Positions 3,347 to 9,865 of a stretch of DNA of 64,000 bases are shown piece by piece (the stretch's first letter is position 1; each line of letters opens with the position of its first letter). This stretch comes from Bacteroidota bacterium (GTDB lineage Bacteria > Bacteroidota > Bacteroidia > Bacteroidales > DTGW01), in NCBI GenBank assembly GCA_029550865.1, contig JAKPGM010000034.1:1-64000 (forward strand), written 5' to 3'. The notes under the pieces are model-generated. The model saw nothing but the letters and a program-made list of their open reading frames with translations, did no database searches and was not told where the DNA came from. The position numbers and the translations under genes are program-made.

Positions 3347-3420
3347 GGTTCGGTAGTTCAGCTGGTTAGAATACATGCCTGTCACGCATGGGGTCGCGGG
3401 TTCGAGTCCCGTCCGAACCG
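3347..3420 (+). tRNA. tRNA-Asp (anticodon GTC)
   Basis: The 74-nt cloverleaf has a perfect 7-bp acceptor stem (GGTTCGG / CCGAACC) with discriminator G, a D arm with AGCTGGTTAGA, an anticodon loop CTGTCAC (anticodon GTC), and a T arm GCGGGTTCGAGTCCCGT. The 3' CCA is not encoded; the gene is followed by CTAAAC. Confidence 0.96.
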
Positions 3421-3460
3421 CTAAACTTAAAAAAAATATTAACTAATTCGCAATTTTGTT

Positions 3461-3468
3461 TATATTTG
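3461..3468 (+). promoter_or_regulatory. Promoter -7 element of the aromatic operon
   Basis: TATATTTG matches TAnnTTTG. It would start transcription a few bases before the leader ATG at 3483, giving a nearly leaderless leader-peptide mRNA. I see no good TTG at the expected -33 distance, so only this half is supported. Confidence 0.6.
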
Positions 3469-3482
3469 CAAAAAAGAATTAT

Positions 3483-3554
3483 ATGACCTGTTTTAGCCAC
3501 GTATATTTTTATTTCTTTTTTTGGTTTACTTCGGCAATACCGGGGCTAAAATAG
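3483..3554 (+). CDS. Leader peptide of the aromatic amino acid operon (Phe/Tyr-rich)
   Basis: A 23-residue frame, ATG 3483 to TAG 3552-3554. Residues 8-15 read YFYFFFWF and there is one more Phe at residue 4, so the peptide carries six Phe, two Tyr and one Trp. The run of aromatic codons (3504-3527) lies just downstream of the left arm of the first hairpin, and the stop codon falls inside its right arm. This is the geometry of a translation-sensing attenuator, comparable in logic to pheL of enteric bacteria. It precedes pheA and the other aromatic genes. There is no sequence homology to argue from; the support is composition, position and the RNA structures. Confidence 0.85.
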   Translation: MTCFSHVYFYFFFWFTSAIPGLK

Positions 3555-3604
3555 GTTTGACATAATAGTATCAAAAGTCCCGGTGAATGCCGGGATTTTT
3601 TTTT
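3488..3604 (+). promoter_or_regulatory. Transcription attenuator of the pheA-aro operon
   Basis: Three mutually exclusive pairings are visible. 1:2, the pause hairpin: CTGTTTTAGCC (3488-3498) with GGCTAAAATAG (3544-3554), one mismatch. 2:3, the antiterminator: GGCA plus ACCGGG (3533-3544) with CCCGGT plus TGCC (3579-3591). 3:4, the terminator: TCCCGG (3578-3583) with CCGGGA (3590-3595), followed by nine T (3596-3604). A ribosome stalled on the Phe/Tyr codons would block arm 1 and favour 2:3 (read-through); one that finishes at the stop codon would cover arm 2 and let 3:4 terminate. pheA starts 18 bases further on. Confidence 0.85.
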
Positions 3605-3621
3605 AATATAACAGTAATGAT

Positions 3622-4479
3622 ATGAGTACAAAAAAAGCTGTAAAACGGATTGCTATCCAGGGAGGATTCGGAGCATTCCATGAAATTGCTGCCAAACACT
3701 ACTTCGAAAATGAAGAAATAGAAATTGTTACGGCAAATACCTTTAAAGACCTTTTTAAATCGTTACGCAACAACCACGCCGACCTGGGGATTATGGCCAT
3801 AGAAAACTCGATAGCGGGTAGCATTTTGCCAAACTATACTTTGCTTCTCGAATCGAACATGAAAATTATCGGAGAAATTTACCTACGCATCAAGCAAAAT
3901 CTGGCCGCCTTGCCTGGAACCCGTATCGAAGACATAGAAGAAGTATATTCCCACCCCATTGCCCTGTTACAATGTCAGCTTTTCTTCGACAATTATCCAC
4001 ATATTAAGCTGGTCGACAGTATCGATACTGCTCTCAGTGCCAAAGAAATAGCGGAGAAGAAGCTAAAAAATCGCGCTGCCATTTGCTCAAAGCTGGCTGC
4101 CGAAAAATATGGTCTTGAAATCATAGCCGAGGGCATTGAAACCAACAAAACCAATTATACCCGCTTCTTAATACTTTCCGATCGTATTGGATATCATAAA
4201 GTTAGCAAAGTGCTCAATAAGGCTTCTTTAAGTTTTGCACTCAAACACGAAACAGGAAGCCTATCGAAAGTGTTATCTATATTGTCGTACTATGGTATAA
4301 ATTTAACGAAAATACAATCCATGCCCATACCTGGAAAAGATTGGGAATATCAATTTTTTGTAGATGTTACGTTTGACGATTATGTAATGTACCGGCAATC
4401 GCTCGATGCAATCAGGCCCTTTACATCGGGACTCGAGATCATGGGCGAATATGCCAAAGGTAAAACAGTGATGGAATAA
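3622..4479 (+). CDS. pheA: Prephenate dehydratase
   Basis: A 285-residue monofunctional prephenate dehydratase converting prephenate to phenylpyruvate, the committed step to Phe. The PDT domain (~8-190) has the start IAIQGGFGAFHEIAA, MAIENSIAGSI, and the catalytic NYTRF motif. A C-terminal ACT domain (~200-280) has GSLSKVLSILSYYGINL and so is the likely Phe-sensing site; the usual ESRP signature is replaced by KIQSMP. It has no chorismate mutase domain, which is supplied by the next gene 11 bases downstream. It is the first gene of the operon and is under the attenuator. Confidence 0.93.
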   Translation: MSTKKAVKRIAIQGGFGAFHEIAAKHYFENEEIEIVTANTFKDLFKSLRNNHADLGIMAIENSIAGSILPNYTLLLESNMKIIGEIYLRIKQNLAALPGTRIEDIEEVYSHPIALLQCQLFFDNYPHIKLVDSIDTALSAKEIAEKKLKNRAAICSKLAAEKYGLEIIAEGIETNKTNYTRFLILSDRIGYHKVSKVLNKASLSFALKHETGSLSKVLSILSYYGINLTKIQSMPIPGKDWEYQFFVDVTFDDYVMYRQSLDAIRPFTSGLEIMGEYAKGKTVME

Positions 4480-4490
4480 AGTTAGAAAAG

Positions 4491-5573
4491 ATGGAACCAA
4501 TGAATTTACAACCCTTCACCTTTGAAGGTATTTCAACAGATCGGCCGTTGGTAATAGCAGGCCCCTGCAGCGCCGAATCGGAAGCACAGATGGTACAAAC
4601 AGCCCAGCAACTGGCTGCATTGGGGATTAAAATTTTCCGTGCAGGGATATGGAAACCCCGTACACGCCCGGGAACCTTTGAAGGTTATGGTTCACTGGCA
4701 CTACCCTGGATGCAGAGTGTTAAAGAGGCAACCGGTATGCTTACCGCAACCGAAGTTGCAAATGTTAAGCACGTTTACGAAGCCTTAAAAGCCGGTATAG
4801 ATATCCTGTGGATTGGTGCTCGCACCTCTGCCAACCCCTTTGCTGTGCAGGAAATTGCCGACGCCCTGCGAGGGGTAGATGTACCTGTTATGGTTAAAAA
4901 CCCTGTCAACCCCGATCTCGAGCTATGGATTGGTGCCATCGAACGCCTATATATGGCCGGAGTAACCCGACTAGCTGCTGGACATCGTGGCTTTTCTACC
5001 TACGAAAAAACTGCCTACCGTAATGATCCTAACTGGCAAATACCCATTGAGCTTCGTCGTAGAATACCTAATATCCCTTTAATCATCGACCCAAGTCACA
5101 TCTGTGGTAAACGCTATACACTCTTCGAAATTACGCAAAAGGCAATGGACCTTAATTACGATGGTATAATCATCGAATCACACATCGATCCCGATCATGC
5201 TCTTAGCGATGCCAAGCAACAGTTACGCCCCGATCAGCTGGGTGAATTGCTTAAAAAACTGGTCATCCGAAAAGAATACATTGAAAACGGATCGCTGGTA
5301 ACCATCGAAGAACTTCGTTCCCAGATCGATAAAATTGACGATAAAATTGTAGAACTACTCGAAAAACGCATGCATATTGCCGAAGAAATTGGAAAAATTA
5401 AGAAAGAAAATAATATTGCTGTATTACAAACCAAACGATGGCACCAGATTATCACCCAACGCATGAAAGAAGCCAGGGAAAAAGGACTGAGCGAGCATTT
5501 TATCGAAAATATTTTTAGGGCTATTCACGAGGAATCCATCAATCACCAAACACGCATCATGAACGAAAATTAG
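4491..5573 (+). CDS. Bifunctional DAHP synthase / chorismate mutase (type I-beta DAHPS, AroQ mutase)
   Basis: A 360-residue fusion. Residues ~1-260 are a KdsA-like (type I-beta) 3-deoxy-7-phosphoheptulonate synthase that condenses PEP and erythrose 4-phosphate: IAGPCSAES, FRAGIWKPRTRPGTFEGYG, DPSHICGKR and the metal-binding IIIESHIDPDHALSDAKQQL. Residues ~268-355 are an AroQ-type chorismate mutase (IEELRSQIDKIDDKIVELLEKR, then the basic IGKIKKENN). This order, synthase first and mutase last, is the fusion described from Prevotella, where prephenate binding to the mutase inhibits the synthase. It therefore supplies both the entry of the shikimate pathway and the substrate for the upstream PheA. 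Confidence 0.93.
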   Translation: MEPMNLQPFTFEGISTDRPLVIAGPCSAESEAQMVQTAQQLAALGIKIFRAGIWKPRTRPGTFEGYGSLALPWMQSVKEATGMLTATEVANVKHVYEALKAGIDILWIGARTSANPFAVQEIADALRGVDVPVMVKNPVNPDLELWIGAIERLYMAGVTRLAAGHRGFSTYEKTAYRNDPNWQIPIELRRRIPNIPLIIDPSHICGKRYTLFEITQKAMDLNYDGIIIESHIDPDHALSDAKQQLRPDQLGELLKKLVIRKEYIENGSLVTIEELRSQIDKIDDKIVELLEKRMHIAEEIGKIKKENNIAVLQTKRWHQIITQRMKEAREKGLSEHFIENIFRAIHEESINHQTRIMNEN

Positions 5574-5582
5574 ACCCATTTC

Positions 5583-6623
5583 ATGGAAGAAATTGTACTG
5601 AAGACTGAAAATAAAATCTCGAAAATACTTATCGGGGAAAAAATTGAAAACTTAACTCATTATCTTCCTACGAATAAGAAGATTATAATCCTCACCGATA
5701 CTAACGTTCTCAAGCACTATCGACATAAGTTACCTCCTTATCCGATAATAGAAATAGGAACTGGCGAGGGAATAAAAAATTTAAGTACTATCGACTATAT
5801 CATGGGACAGCTTATACGGCACGAGGCCGACCGTAGCTCGTATCTGGTAGGAATAGGAGGAGGTATTGTATGCGACATTGCTGGTTTTGCTGCTTCTATA
5901 TACATGCGGGGCATTCGCTTTGGCTTTGTTAGTACTACCCTGCTCAGTCAAGTCGATGCCAGTGTGGGGGGTAAAAACGGGGTAAACTACGAAGGGTATA
6001 AAAATATGGTAGGGGTATTTAACCAGCCCGATTTTGTAATATGCGATACCTCGATGCTTACAACGCTGCCACGCGAAGAATACATAGGAGGATATGCCGA
6101 AATAATCAAGCATGGATGTATTCGCAGTCATGAATTATTTGAATTTCTCGAAAACAATGTATCCCGAGCTCTTGCTTACGATTCCCACGTTATCGAGCAC
6201 TGTGTAGCGCAATCGGTACGTATCAAAGCCGCAGTAGTTGAAAACGATGAACGTGAAAAAGGCGAAAGACGTATTCTGAACTTTGGTCACACCTTTGCCC
6301 ATGCCATCGAAAAAATCACAGCCTTGCCCCATGGAAAGGCTGTTTCCATTGGAATGAACTATGCTTCCTATATTTCCTATCAATTGGGAATGATTTCTGA
6401 AAATGATTATAGGCGAATTCGTGAGCTGATTACACGTTTTCAGCTTCCTACCAATTTTGACTTTGAACCCAATACCCTTGTGGATGCCATGCGGAAAGAT
6501 AAAAAACGCGAGGGCGACGACATTCACCTGGTTTTGCTCGAAGCTATCGGTAATGCCATAGTTAAACCTGTAACATACAATCAACTTAAAACATTCGTCC
6601 ATGATTTGTGTAAGCATCAGTGA
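5583..6623 (+). CDS. aroB: 3-dehydroquinate synthase
   Basis: A 346-residue NAD-dependent enzyme making 3-dehydroquinate from DAHP. It shows the nucleotide-binding GIGGGIVCDIAGFAASIYMRG, the SVGGKNGVN segment, GGYAEIIKHG, and the metal-ligand regions NFGHTFAHAIE and LPHGKAVSIGMNYA. Length is normal. It starts nine bases after the DAHPS fusion and its 3' end overlaps aroD by 23 bases. Confidence 0.95.
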   Translation: MEEIVLKTENKISKILIGEKIENLTHYLPTNKKIIILTDTNVLKHYRHKLPPYPIIEIGTGEGIKNLSTIDYIMGQLIRHEADRSSYLVGIGGGIVCDIAGFAASIYMRGIRFGFVSTTLLSQVDASVGGKNGVNYEGYKNMVGVFNQPDFVICDTSMLTTLPREEYIGGYAEIIKHGCIRSHELFEFLENNVSRALAYDSHVIEHCVAQSVRIKAAVVENDEREKGERRILNFGHTFAHAIEKITALPHGKAVSIGMNYASYISYQLGMISENDYRRIRELITRFQLPTNFDFEPNTLVDAMRKDKKREGDDIHLVLLEAIGNAIVKPVTYNQLKTFVHDLCKHQ

Positions 6624-7242
6624 ATCGAACTTTGAAAAATGCCTTGAACTGGTGAAAAAGTTTGAACTGGCCGAGGTACGTCTCGACTTGTGTCGTTTTA
6701 ATACATCACAAATCGAAAAGATATTTTCGTCGGGTCAACGTCTGATTGCCACCTATCGACCTTCGAAAGAAGTTACAGAAAAAGAACGAGCTGAAGGATT
6801 ACTGGCTGCCATTCGTTCGGGAGCAAAATATGTGGATGTTGAAATTGAAACCGATTATGCCTTCAAGCATAACATAATAACCGAAGCGGTTCTCCACAAC
6901 TGCGATGTTATCATTTCGTACCACAACTTTGAGCACACCCCAACCCTTGAACAGCTAAAAATCGTCATCAATCAATGCTTTGATATGGGGGCAAACGTAG
7001 CTAAGGTAGCCTGTATGGTAAACGAACCTTCGGATAATGCTCGATTGCTTGCACTTTATCAGTCAGGCAAGCGGATCGTTGCCTTGGGGATGGGCGAACT
7101 GGGAAAAATTTCACGCATAGCAGCACCATTCATGGGGGCAGAATTTACATTTGCTTCGGCAAATGATGAATTTTCGACTGCTCCGGGACAGATTAGCTAT
7201 TACAAACTCAACACCATTATCGAACTTCTTAAAAATTCATAG
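6601..7242 (+). CDS. aroD: 3-dehydroquinate dehydratase, type I
   Basis: A 213-residue type I (Schiff-base) dehydroquinase. Seen are AEVRLDLCRF, the general-base His in ISYHNFEHTP, the Schiff-base Lys in NVAKVACMV, and GMGELGKISR followed by the substrate-loop segment TAPGQIS. It overlaps aroB by 23 bases and is followed by aroC after two bases, so translation should be tightly coupled. Confidence 0.93.
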   Translation: MICVSISESNFEKCLELVKKFELAEVRLDLCRFNTSQIEKIFSSGQRLIATYRPSKEVTEKERAEGLLAAIRSGAKYVDVEIETDYAFKHNIITEAVLHNCDVIISYHNFEHTPTLEQLKIVINQCFDMGANVAKVACMVNEPSDNARLLALYQSGKRIVALGMGELGKISRIAAPFMGAEFTFASANDEFSTAPGQISYYKLNTIIELLKNS

Positions 7243-7244
7243 GC

Positions 7245-8237
7245 ATGAACTCTATTGGCACACTTTTTCGTCTGAGTATTTTTGGTGAATCGCATGGGAA
7301 ATGTGTAGGAATAGTGATTGACGGTGTACCAGCAGGTATTCCTCTAACAGAAGCCGACCTGGAAAAAGATTTAGCTCGGAGAAAAAGTGGGGCCAAAGGA
7401 ACAACCCCGCGCCAGGAGGCCGATCAGCCCCGCATCATGAGCGGTACCTTCAACGACCATACTACGGGAGCGCCCATCATGATTCTTTTTGAGAATACCA
7501 ATACCCGATCCCGCGACTACACTTTTTTGCTCGAAACTCCGCGTCCAGGGCATGCCGATTTTGTAGCTCACAAAAAATTTGGGGGATATGAGGATTATCG
7601 GGGGGGAGGACATTTCTCGGGACGTCTTACCCTGGGTATCGTAGCAGCTGGCGTCATTGCCAAAAAAATCATCCATCCCATCGAGGTACGTTCCACCCTT
7701 ATTGAGGCCGGAGGATCGCCCAACATTGAAGAAGCGGTGGAAAAAGCTATGGCCGATCGCGACTCTATTGGCGGTATTGTCGAAACCGTTGCAACCAACA
7801 TGCCCATAGGATTAGGGGAACCTTTTTTTGGCAACATCAAAGCTATCATTGCTCACTATATATTCTCGATTCCTGCCATCAAAGGCCTTGAGTTTGGTTC
7901 AGGCTTTGCTGCAGCCCGCATGCGTGGATCGGAACATAACGACCGATTCATCGACACTAGTGGCAAAACTGCCACTAACAATGCTGGCGGTATCAATGGG
8001 GGAATATCCAACGGCAACGACCTGATTTTTCGCGTAGCCGTTAAACCCACCAGTAGTATCCACGCTACCCAACACACCATGAACATGAAGACCGGAACAA
8101 TGACCGATCTCAATGTCGAAGGTCGACACGATACCTGTATCGCTCTCAGGGTTCCCGTGGTTGTCGAAGCTGCTACTGCCATTGCGCTGGCCGATTTGAT
8201 GTTGCAGGAACAAAAAGTCAAGCGAATTTTTGGCTAA
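7245..8237 (+). CDS. aroC: Chorismate synthase
   Basis: A 330-residue FMN-dependent enzyme converting EPSP to chorismate, last step of the common pathway. It carries the signatures FGESHGKCVGIVIDG, YRGGGHFSGRLTLG and GSEHNDRF, and the late conserved RHDTCIALRVPVVVEAATA. It is slightly shorter than the usual ~350-360 residues but both ends look intact. It is the last gene of the operon; aroA, aroE, aroK and tyrA are not in this window. Confidence 0.95.
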   Translation: MNSIGTLFRLSIFGESHGKCVGIVIDGVPAGIPLTEADLEKDLARRKSGAKGTTPRQEADQPRIMSGTFNDHTTGAPIMILFENTNTRSRDYTFLLETPRPGHADFVAHKKFGGYEDYRGGGHFSGRLTLGIVAAGVIAKKIIHPIEVRSTLIEAGGSPNIEEAVEKAMADRDSIGGIVETVATNMPIGLGEPFFGNIKAIIAHYIFSIPAIKGLEFGSGFAAARMRGSEHNDRFIDTSGKTATNNAGGINGGISNGNDLIFRVAVKPTSSIHATQHTMNMKTGTMTDLNVEGRHDTCIALRVPVVVEAATAIALADLMLQEQKVKRIFG

Positions 8238-8452: not shown

Positions 8453-9865
8453 ATGTCCGAGAGTTATGAAGAATTGGTCAGGCGAATTGCAAAATTGGTA
8501 AAGCAAAACAAGGAGCTGAAAGAAGAAAATAACCGTTTGCATAGCCTATACGAAAAGCTGCAGGACGAAAATGAACAGTTAAAAAAACTGCTCGGAAAAT
8601 ATCAGGCCACCCTTGAACTGCCTGGAGAAAAAGATGAACAAAAAACCCTGCGCTTTCAAATGGCAACCGTTTTGTTTGCCAATATCCATGGTTTCTCTCG
8701 GCTGAATGATAAGATTGATTCGCAGAAAGTCATCGACCAGCTCGATTCTATCATGTTTCATTTCGAAAATGTAATTCACAAGTATAAAATTGAAAAAATA
8801 AAAACCATTGGCGATACCCTAATGTGTGCAGGGGGTATCCCGCAAAAAAACATCACCAACCCTGTTGAAGTCGTCCTGGCTGCCCTTGAAATGGTAATGA
8901 TAGTGGATGAGATTCAACATCAATCGGACAATGACAAGATATGGGAAATAAAAATGGGCATTCATACGGGGCCTGTTACTGCAACACTAGGAGGTAATAA
9001 AAAAAGTACGTACGAATTAAAAGGTGACACCGTAAACATTGCTACCCGCCTTGAATCGTCAGGAGTGCCAGGAAATATTATTATTTCGGCTAATACCTAC
9101 GAGCTGGTGAAAGAATTTTTTACTTGCGAATATATGGGTAAAATGCCCATCAAATATCATGGGGATATCGATATTTACCTGGTCAAGGGTATCAAACCTG
9201 AGCTTTCGGTAAACGAGCAGGGCAAAGTTCCGAACGACCTGTTCCGAACACGTTTTGGCTTATTACAATTCAATGATTTACAGGAAATCATCCTTGACCG
9301 GTTGGAAAAAGAGCTTCCACCCTACCTGTATTACCACAACGTCAAGCATACCGTCGATGTCATAACCGAAGTCGAGCTAATAGGCTGGGGCGAAGGCGTT
9401 AGCGACGAGGAAATACTACTGCTTAAGACAGCCGCCCTGTTTCACGACTCAGGGCATATCATTTCATACGACAACCACGAATACTTTGGAACCGTTCTGG
9501 CCAGGGAATATTTGCCAAAATTTAATTATACCAACGAGCAAATTGAAATCATTTGTGAGCTGATCATGGCTACTAAGTTGCCGCCTAAGCCCAAAAATCT
9601 GCTCGAAAAAATCATGTGTGATGCTGACCTGGACTATTTAGGGCGGTCCGATTTTATTCCGGTATCCAATACACTCTATCGCGAACTTAAAGAGCAAAAT
9701 AAAATAGGCAGCTTGAACGATTGGAACAAGCTGCAACTCAAATTTATCTCTGGACATCAGTATTTTACCCAAACAGCACTTAGCCTGCGCGAAGTAAACA
9801 AGCAAAAGCAGATTGAACGTATTATGCAACTCATTGAACCCGAACCAAATGAACCACAGCCATGA
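8453..9865 (+). CDS. Class III nucleotide-cyclase-like domain fused to a PDE-like HD domain
   Basis: A 470-residue soluble protein. Residues ~5-60 form a coiled coil, ~66-250 a class III adenylyl/guanylyl cyclase domain and ~285-420 an HD domain. In the cyclase domain the substrate-side KTIGD (Lys117, Asp121), GIHTGPV and the transition-state pair in DTVNIATRL (Asn195, Arg199) are kept, but the first metal-binding Asp is Asn77 (LFANIHGFS instead of the usual LFxDIxGFT). The HD domain has YYHNVKHTVDV (His295, His299), LFHDSGH (His331, Asp332, His335) and a late DADLD; the first motif is very like the HNxxHAxDV pattern of class I cyclic-nucleotide phosphodiesterases. The protein may both make and break a cyclic nucleotide, or the cyclase half may be only a sensor. 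It overlaps the next gene by four bases. Confidence 0.8.
   Translation: MSESYEELVRRIAKLVKQNKELKEENNRLHSLYEKLQDENEQLKKLLGKYQATLELPGEKDEQKTLRFQMATVLFANIHGFSRLNDKIDSQKVIDQLDSIMFHFENVIHKYKIEKIKTIGDTLMCAGGIPQKNITNPVEVVLAALEMVMIVDEIQHQSDNDKIWEIKMGIHTGPVTATLGGNKKSTYELKGDTVNIATRLESSGVPGNIIISANTYELVKEFFTCEYMGKMPIKYHGDIDIYLVKGIKPELSVNEQGKVPNDLFRTRFGLLQFNDLQEIILDRLEKELPPYLYYHNVKHTVDVITEVELIGWGEGVSDEEILLLKTAALFHDSGHIISYDNHEYFGTVLAREYLPKFNYTNEQIEIICELIMATKLPPKPKNLLEKIMCDADLDYLGRSDFIPVSNTLYRELKEQNKIGSLNDWNKLQLKFISGHQYFTQTALSLREVNKQKQIERIMQLIEPEPNEPQP

Follow-up and report, generated by a model that had tools for sequence, protein, structure and literature searches.

The DNA analysed here, hereafter the window, is a 64,000-nucleotide stretch of the genome of a Bacteroidota bacterium (contig JAKPGM010000034.1, positions 1 to 64,000, forward strand; order Bacteroidales, class Bacteroidia). 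Near its left end lies an operon for aromatic amino-acid biosynthesis, whose first gene is the prephenate dehydratase gene pheA. Directly upstream of pheA is the element considered here, a short open reading frame (ORF) rich in codons for Phe and Tyr, together with a set of competing hairpins. Its features are listed with the basis for each assignment; the swap test is described below.

3461–3468, + strand: promoter box TATATTTG, Bacteroidota-type −7 (TAnnTTTG); sequence
3483–3554, + strand: leader ORF MTCFSHVYFYFFFWFTSAIPGLK with its stop, 23 codons, ATG 3483–3485, TAG 3552–3554; sequence and frame-specific TTY codons
3504–3527, + strand: control codons YFYFFFWF, leader codons 8–15; sequence, kept in relatives
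3485–3498, + strand: left arm of the pause stem; 14 bp in folding, swap test
3544–3557, + strand: right arm of the pause stem, with the stop codon inside; folding, swap test
3530–3547, + strand: left arm of the antiterminator; 17 bp, −28.0 kcal/mol, swap test
3576–3594, + strand: right arm of the antiterminator, overlapping both arms of the terminator; folding, swap test
3573–3604, + strand: intrinsic terminator, 12-bp stem 3573–3600 and nine T at 3596–3604; folding, −16.1 kcal/mol

An earlier sequence-only reading of this region had described a 23-codon leader containing YFYFFFWF, with six Phe, two Tyr and one Trp codons in all, and in this it was exact; all eight codons of the block are aromatic, and the last base of the promoter box lies 15 nt upstream of the leader ATG. 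The pause stem with the stop codon in its right arm and the terminator with nine T were also found as described. The antiterminator had been given as 10 bp; that helix is present but is not the whole structure, which continues in a further 7-bp helix. The three hairpins are mutually exclusive, as had been claimed, because bases 3544–3547 are common to the pause stem and the antiterminator, and the antiterminator takes up both arms of the terminator.

Such an arrangement is not readily obtained by chance. Among 2,000 dinucleotide shuffles of 3421–3621 not one contained an ATG-initiated leader with at least eight aromatic codons in ten, and not one produced a terminator as good as the real one. 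The folding z-score of the attenuator region is −3.36. When both strands of the entire window were scanned for amino-acid-rich leaders followed by a terminator, the pheA leader was the sole place returned.

Regions upstream of pheA were drawn from order-level relatives, from 80 named records and from a phylum-wide sample. A leader was called present at six or more aromatic codons in ten, and order-level loci were counted only where enough upstream DNA was available. On this basis the leader precedes pheA in 90 of 98 order-level loci. The eight below the threshold include L029, which has a shorter FYFY leader with a terminator, L248, from a small genome of 1.2 Mb, and L208 and L229, where pheA sits close behind an apparent other gene. 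In the phylum-wide sample 28 of the 30 same-class genomes examined have the leader. In L142, one of the exceptions, pheA probably lies inside an operon, since the apparent end of aroA is found just upstream. Outside the class the leader was detected at three of 38 loci (L115, L134 and L138); the other 35 never reach the threshold, which indicates a low false-positive rate for the search. A Phe/Tyr-rich leader before pheA is a class-wide feature.

In the three loci outside the class (L115 in G073, L134 in G125 and L138 in G192), PheA scores like the class's own and an aromatic leader is present. The pheA found in other members of these families is a different one and has no leader. Joint transfer of pheA and its attenuator into these lineages is possible.

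The sequence-only reading had named beforehand a comparison of aromatic codons and of arm changes in relatives. The codons are kept in 188 distinct leaders (start codons 181 ATG and 7 GTG), and the arms, as shown below, co-vary. Within the aromatic blocks the in-frame TTN codons are TTY 897 times and TTR once, whereas TTR is counted 81 and 454 times in the two remaining frames; the contrast is somewhat inflated because leaders were chosen for their aromatic codons. In 137 of 185 units a TAnnTTTG promoter box is found no more than 60 nt before the leader ATG, whereas shuffling would predict 6.7. A chance T-rich ORF, considered as an explanation of the leader, was ruled out by the frame-specific codons together with the shuffles.

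In the swap test, the duplex energy between the 3' part of the leader and the terminator hairpin was calculated within each species and for all swaps between species, over 184 units. A species' own pairs average −16.95 kcal/mol and permuted pairs −13.08 kcal/mol (standard deviation 0.21), giving z = −18.4 and no permutation in 20,000 as favourable, although p-values of this kind overstate certainty because the sequences are related by descent. Composition controls in which one partner was reversed give z of about −3. For the pause stem the corresponding values are −8.4 and, for the control, −3.7 (184 units). Own-pair energies surpass the swaps far beyond the reversed controls, and we therefore conclude that the arms evolve together. 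The terminator has a median energy of −16.3 kcal/mol over the 184 units. By inspection, the pause stem of the window is retained relative to the genus neighbour L002 despite changes in both arms.

The geometry suggests how the element would work. Transcription would begin a few bases upstream of the leader ATG. With ample Phe and Tyr, the ribosome would reach the stop codon at 3552–3554 and cover the left arm of the antiterminator (3530–3547), so that the terminator at 3573–3604 could form and RNA polymerase would halt before pheA. Were Phe or Tyr scarce, the ribosome would stall at codons 8–13, breaking the pause stem and leaving 3530–3547 free to pair with 3576–3594 as the antiterminator, and the polymerase would continue. 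If the leader were not translated at all, the pause stem would form and termination would be expected.

For the window, this scheme agrees with an equilibrium calculation in which a ribosome was set on each codon in turn and the RNA beyond it was folded, the footprint being taken to end 12 or 14 nt beyond the first base of the codon in the A site. The terminator has a probability of 0.00–0.08 with the ribosome at codons 8–13, and of 0.98–0.99 with the ribosome at codon 15 or later, at the stop codon or absent. At codon 14, the Trp codon, the outcome is borderline and varies with the assumed footprint. Stalling at Phe or Tyr codons should therefore yield read-through, and stalling at Trp at most weakly.

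What the window contains corresponds in all appearance to a classical attenuator: an aromatic leader ORF, an intrinsic terminator, an exclusive antiterminator and, by equilibrium folding, a suitable stall geometry. We consider it highly probable, at roughly 0.93, that the element is a ribosome-mediated transcription attenuator through which the availability of charged tRNA-Phe and tRNA-Tyr would set expression of the operon from pheA to aroC. The basis for this assignment is the anatomy, the coding signature of the leader, the complementarity of the arms, the co-occurrence of codon type with operon content and the equilibrium folding; the transcription start, stalling of the ribosome and a cellular response to amino acids are inferred.

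Some observations weigh against this reading, in addition to the shared descent that affects the permutation tests. When the full leaders of 185 relatives were folded at equilibrium, stalls at aromatic codons came out as read-through in no more than about 21% of cases, compared with 2% for stop codons; for many or most relatives the model therefore needs a co-transcriptional order of folding. Among intact operons the fraction of Tyr codons shows just a weak trend with the presence of tyrA (p = 0.10). In addition, the genome of this organism is incomplete, at 83.7%.

The question of which amino acids are sensed involves the genes that the element precedes. Those of the window were identified by Pfam and include a 3-deoxy-D-arabino-heptulosonate 7-phosphate (DAHP) synthase (DAHPS).

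3622–4479, + strand: pheA, prephenate dehydratase with ACT domain, first gene of the operon (PF00800, PF01842)
4491–5573, + strand: DAHP synthase – chorismate mutase (PF00793, PF01817)
5583–6623, + strand: aroB, 3-dehydroquinate synthase (PF01761, PF24621)
6601–7242, + strand: aroD, type I 3-dehydroquinase (PF01487)
7245–8237, + strand: aroC, chorismate synthase (PF01264)

The pheA operon lacks tyrA, as the sequence-only reading had remarked; the tyrA gene of this genome lies elsewhere. That reading saw a puzzle in a mixture of Phe and Tyr codons without tyrA, but there is none: mixed codons are to be expected because the DAHP synthase and shikimate genes of the operon serve Phe, Tyr and Trp alike. 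Its suggestion that Phe and Tyr are both sensed gains support from relatives in which the operon is split. All 181 leaders that precede an aminotransferase (AAT), DAHP synthase, tyrA or aro genes contain Tyr. At six loci, from four families, pheA has left the aromatic operon and has none of these genes behind it. Tyr is absent from the block in five of the six solitary-pheA leaders (MTRFFTHFFFFFTQQ, MRRNSFRFFFFFAFFFCNGRNGVSYLY, MKHDTFRFFFFFAFFFCNGRNGVSYSY, MITINNSFFFFFFRSDPEKGL and MTYKNNNGFFFFFFGSKPGEGLL) and occurs once in the sixth. The association of Tyr with operon content gives a Fisher p of 3e-9 counted by leader and uncorrected for kinship.

The detached genes were looked up in one genome for each of the four split-operon families, and in all four they have their own attenuator with Tyr codons. 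Such leaders precede AAT-DAHPS-tyrA in G032 (MIKNISVFAYFYYYFYFSKK), tyrA-DAHPS-aroB-aroD in G022 (MNNTFGYYAFYYYFFYNN) and tyrA in G041 (MAPVHTYYAWSFFFFYFQNKRGHAV), while AAT-tyrA-DAHPS in G249 has two Tyr-containing attenuators in series (MTTYTFSYFYYWFRTP and MVNFEFYYGFYYYLD). Since solitary pheA leaders are Phe-only or almost so, detached genes carry Tyr-containing leaders and every one of the intact-operon leaders contains Tyr, the Tyr codons travel with the DAHPS and tyrA genes.

Tandem units of leader and terminator precede pheA in nine relatives (L008, L028, L058, L087, L099, L103, L114, L143 and L181), and in four of them (L008, L087, L099 and L181) the gene-proximal unit contains Trp. 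A tenth tandem case lies upstream of the detached AAT-tyrA-DAHPS (L277, reverse complement, 20–260). The window itself has only one unit. We lean, with some reserve, towards a class-wide, multi-input family whose codons would be retuned when operons are rearranged: Phe and Tyr, sometimes with Trp, before the joint operon, Phe alone before solitary pheA, and Tyr-containing leaders before detached tyrA or DAHPS, with some lineages combining signals through two attenuators in series.

A simpler proposal would be that only Phe is sensed and that the Tyr and Trp codons are incidental, sharing a T-rich codon shape. Five of the eight block codons are indeed Phe, the operon lacks tyrA and the genome's own tyrA has no leader. 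We nevertheless regard this as unlikely, given the presence of Tyr in every leader before AAT, DAHPS or tyrA operons, its near absence before solitary pheA and the Tyr-containing leaders on detached tyrA operons. In the 188 leaders Phe and Tyr are each encoded by both of their codons, and the near equality of TAT and TAC (334:306) argues that the Tyr codons are no by-product of T runs. It is less probable still that the leader acts in another way, be it through Rho-dependent termination, through coupling of its translation to that of pheA, or through a ribosome arrested by the nascent aromatic peptide and not by uncharged tRNA. Leader peptides of such kinds occur in other systems, and the hydrophobic aromatic peptide shows good conservation within some groups; against this stand the strong intrinsic terminator and the co-varying antiterminator in 184 units. 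Moreover, families differ freely in how their aromatic residues are ordered, but the codon class follows operon content, so that codon counting fits better than a defined arrest peptide.

There remains the tRNA-Asp gene upstream of the leader.

3347–3421, + strand: tRNA-Asp, its end about 60 bases from the leader

The hairpin could in principle be a plain terminator of this gene beside a chance ORF, and a tRNA gene is found in the same position in the nearest relative, L002. At the eight other element-bearing loci of the same scan no tRNA was found, however, and conservation and covariation are seen for the leader, promoter box and antiterminator. Conservation of the element without the tRNA refutes this explanation, to which we attach almost no probability.

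Attenuation appears to be used elsewhere in the same genome, since a Trp leader (MNNRRNNIWWWWRFLLLNREEG, with WWWW) and a terminator are found in a trpE-type gene locus (L282, G000:C59, 733–801). No attenuator or leader was found at the genome's own tyrA, and no His leader at its hisG locus. Within the pheA operon, aroB and aroD overlap by 23 bases (6601–6623), which suggests translational coupling of the two. Directly downstream of the operon, 8453–9865 encodes an adenylate/guanylate cyclase domain fused to an HD domain (Pfam); in some relatives (L031, L035 and L038) the slot right after the operon holds tyrA.

Ribosome-mediated attenuation is a known kind of device; the element of the window is unregistered in Rfam, where no family matches it at gathering or at loose thresholds. 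The best weak matches include the enterobacterial Leu, Phe and Trp leaders alongside unrelated small RNAs. A close likeness is to the enterobacterial pheL-pheA system (RF01859, Phe_leader), which has the same layout of a Phe-rich leader peptide, pause stem, antiterminator and terminator before prephenate dehydratase. The element scores 21.4 bits with this model, below the gathering score of 55, and is therefore outside the family. It also differs from pheL-pheA in its mixed Phe/Tyr(/Trp) codons, the common aromatic operon and the Bacteroidota-type promoter box. Bacteroid-trp (RF01692; PMC2864571) is likewise a candidate cis-regulatory RNA of Bacteroidetes, associated by name with tryptophan genes, and gives no hit in the window, nor in the nine relatives that were searched. 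The tandem attenuators of Salmonella mgtCBR (PMC3641672) are comparable with the double units of some relatives, but that operon is for a Mg2+ transporter and MgtC rather than amino-acid biosynthesis, and the window has a single unit.

The sequence-only reading was right that such attenuators are little studied in this phylum, yet a 5' element at pheA had already been flagged. For Flavobacterium psychrophilum, a transcriptome analysis reports 'strong clues' that leader peptides attenuate amino-acid operons, and it names, for this species and other Flavobacteriaceae, a conserved structured 5' element at pheA that matches nothing in Rfam (PMC9723704). That element concerns the same gene in the same phylum; the section devoted to it describes no codon content, alternative structures or reach beyond Flavobacteriaceae. 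In B. thetaiotaomicron, short ORFs reminiscent of leader peptides are reported in long 5' untranslated regions (PMC7366714). The attenuation survey of Lopatovskaya (2010; cited in PMC4833913) may already mention the element. As far as we have checked, the class-wide reach, the covariation test, the match between codons and operon content and the tandem units in nine relatives are new.

Genome annotation misses the element because Rfam has no family for it. Our results indicate that attenuation of the trp/phe type is standard for aromatic biosynthesis in a major bacterial class, gut Bacteroides included, which has hardly been described for such attenuation and whose translation is independent of Shine–Dalgarno sequences. 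The split operons provide a natural experiment on codon specificity. Leaders are identified in the culturable B. fragilis (L056) and B. xylanisolvens (L064), in which the mechanism is directly testable.
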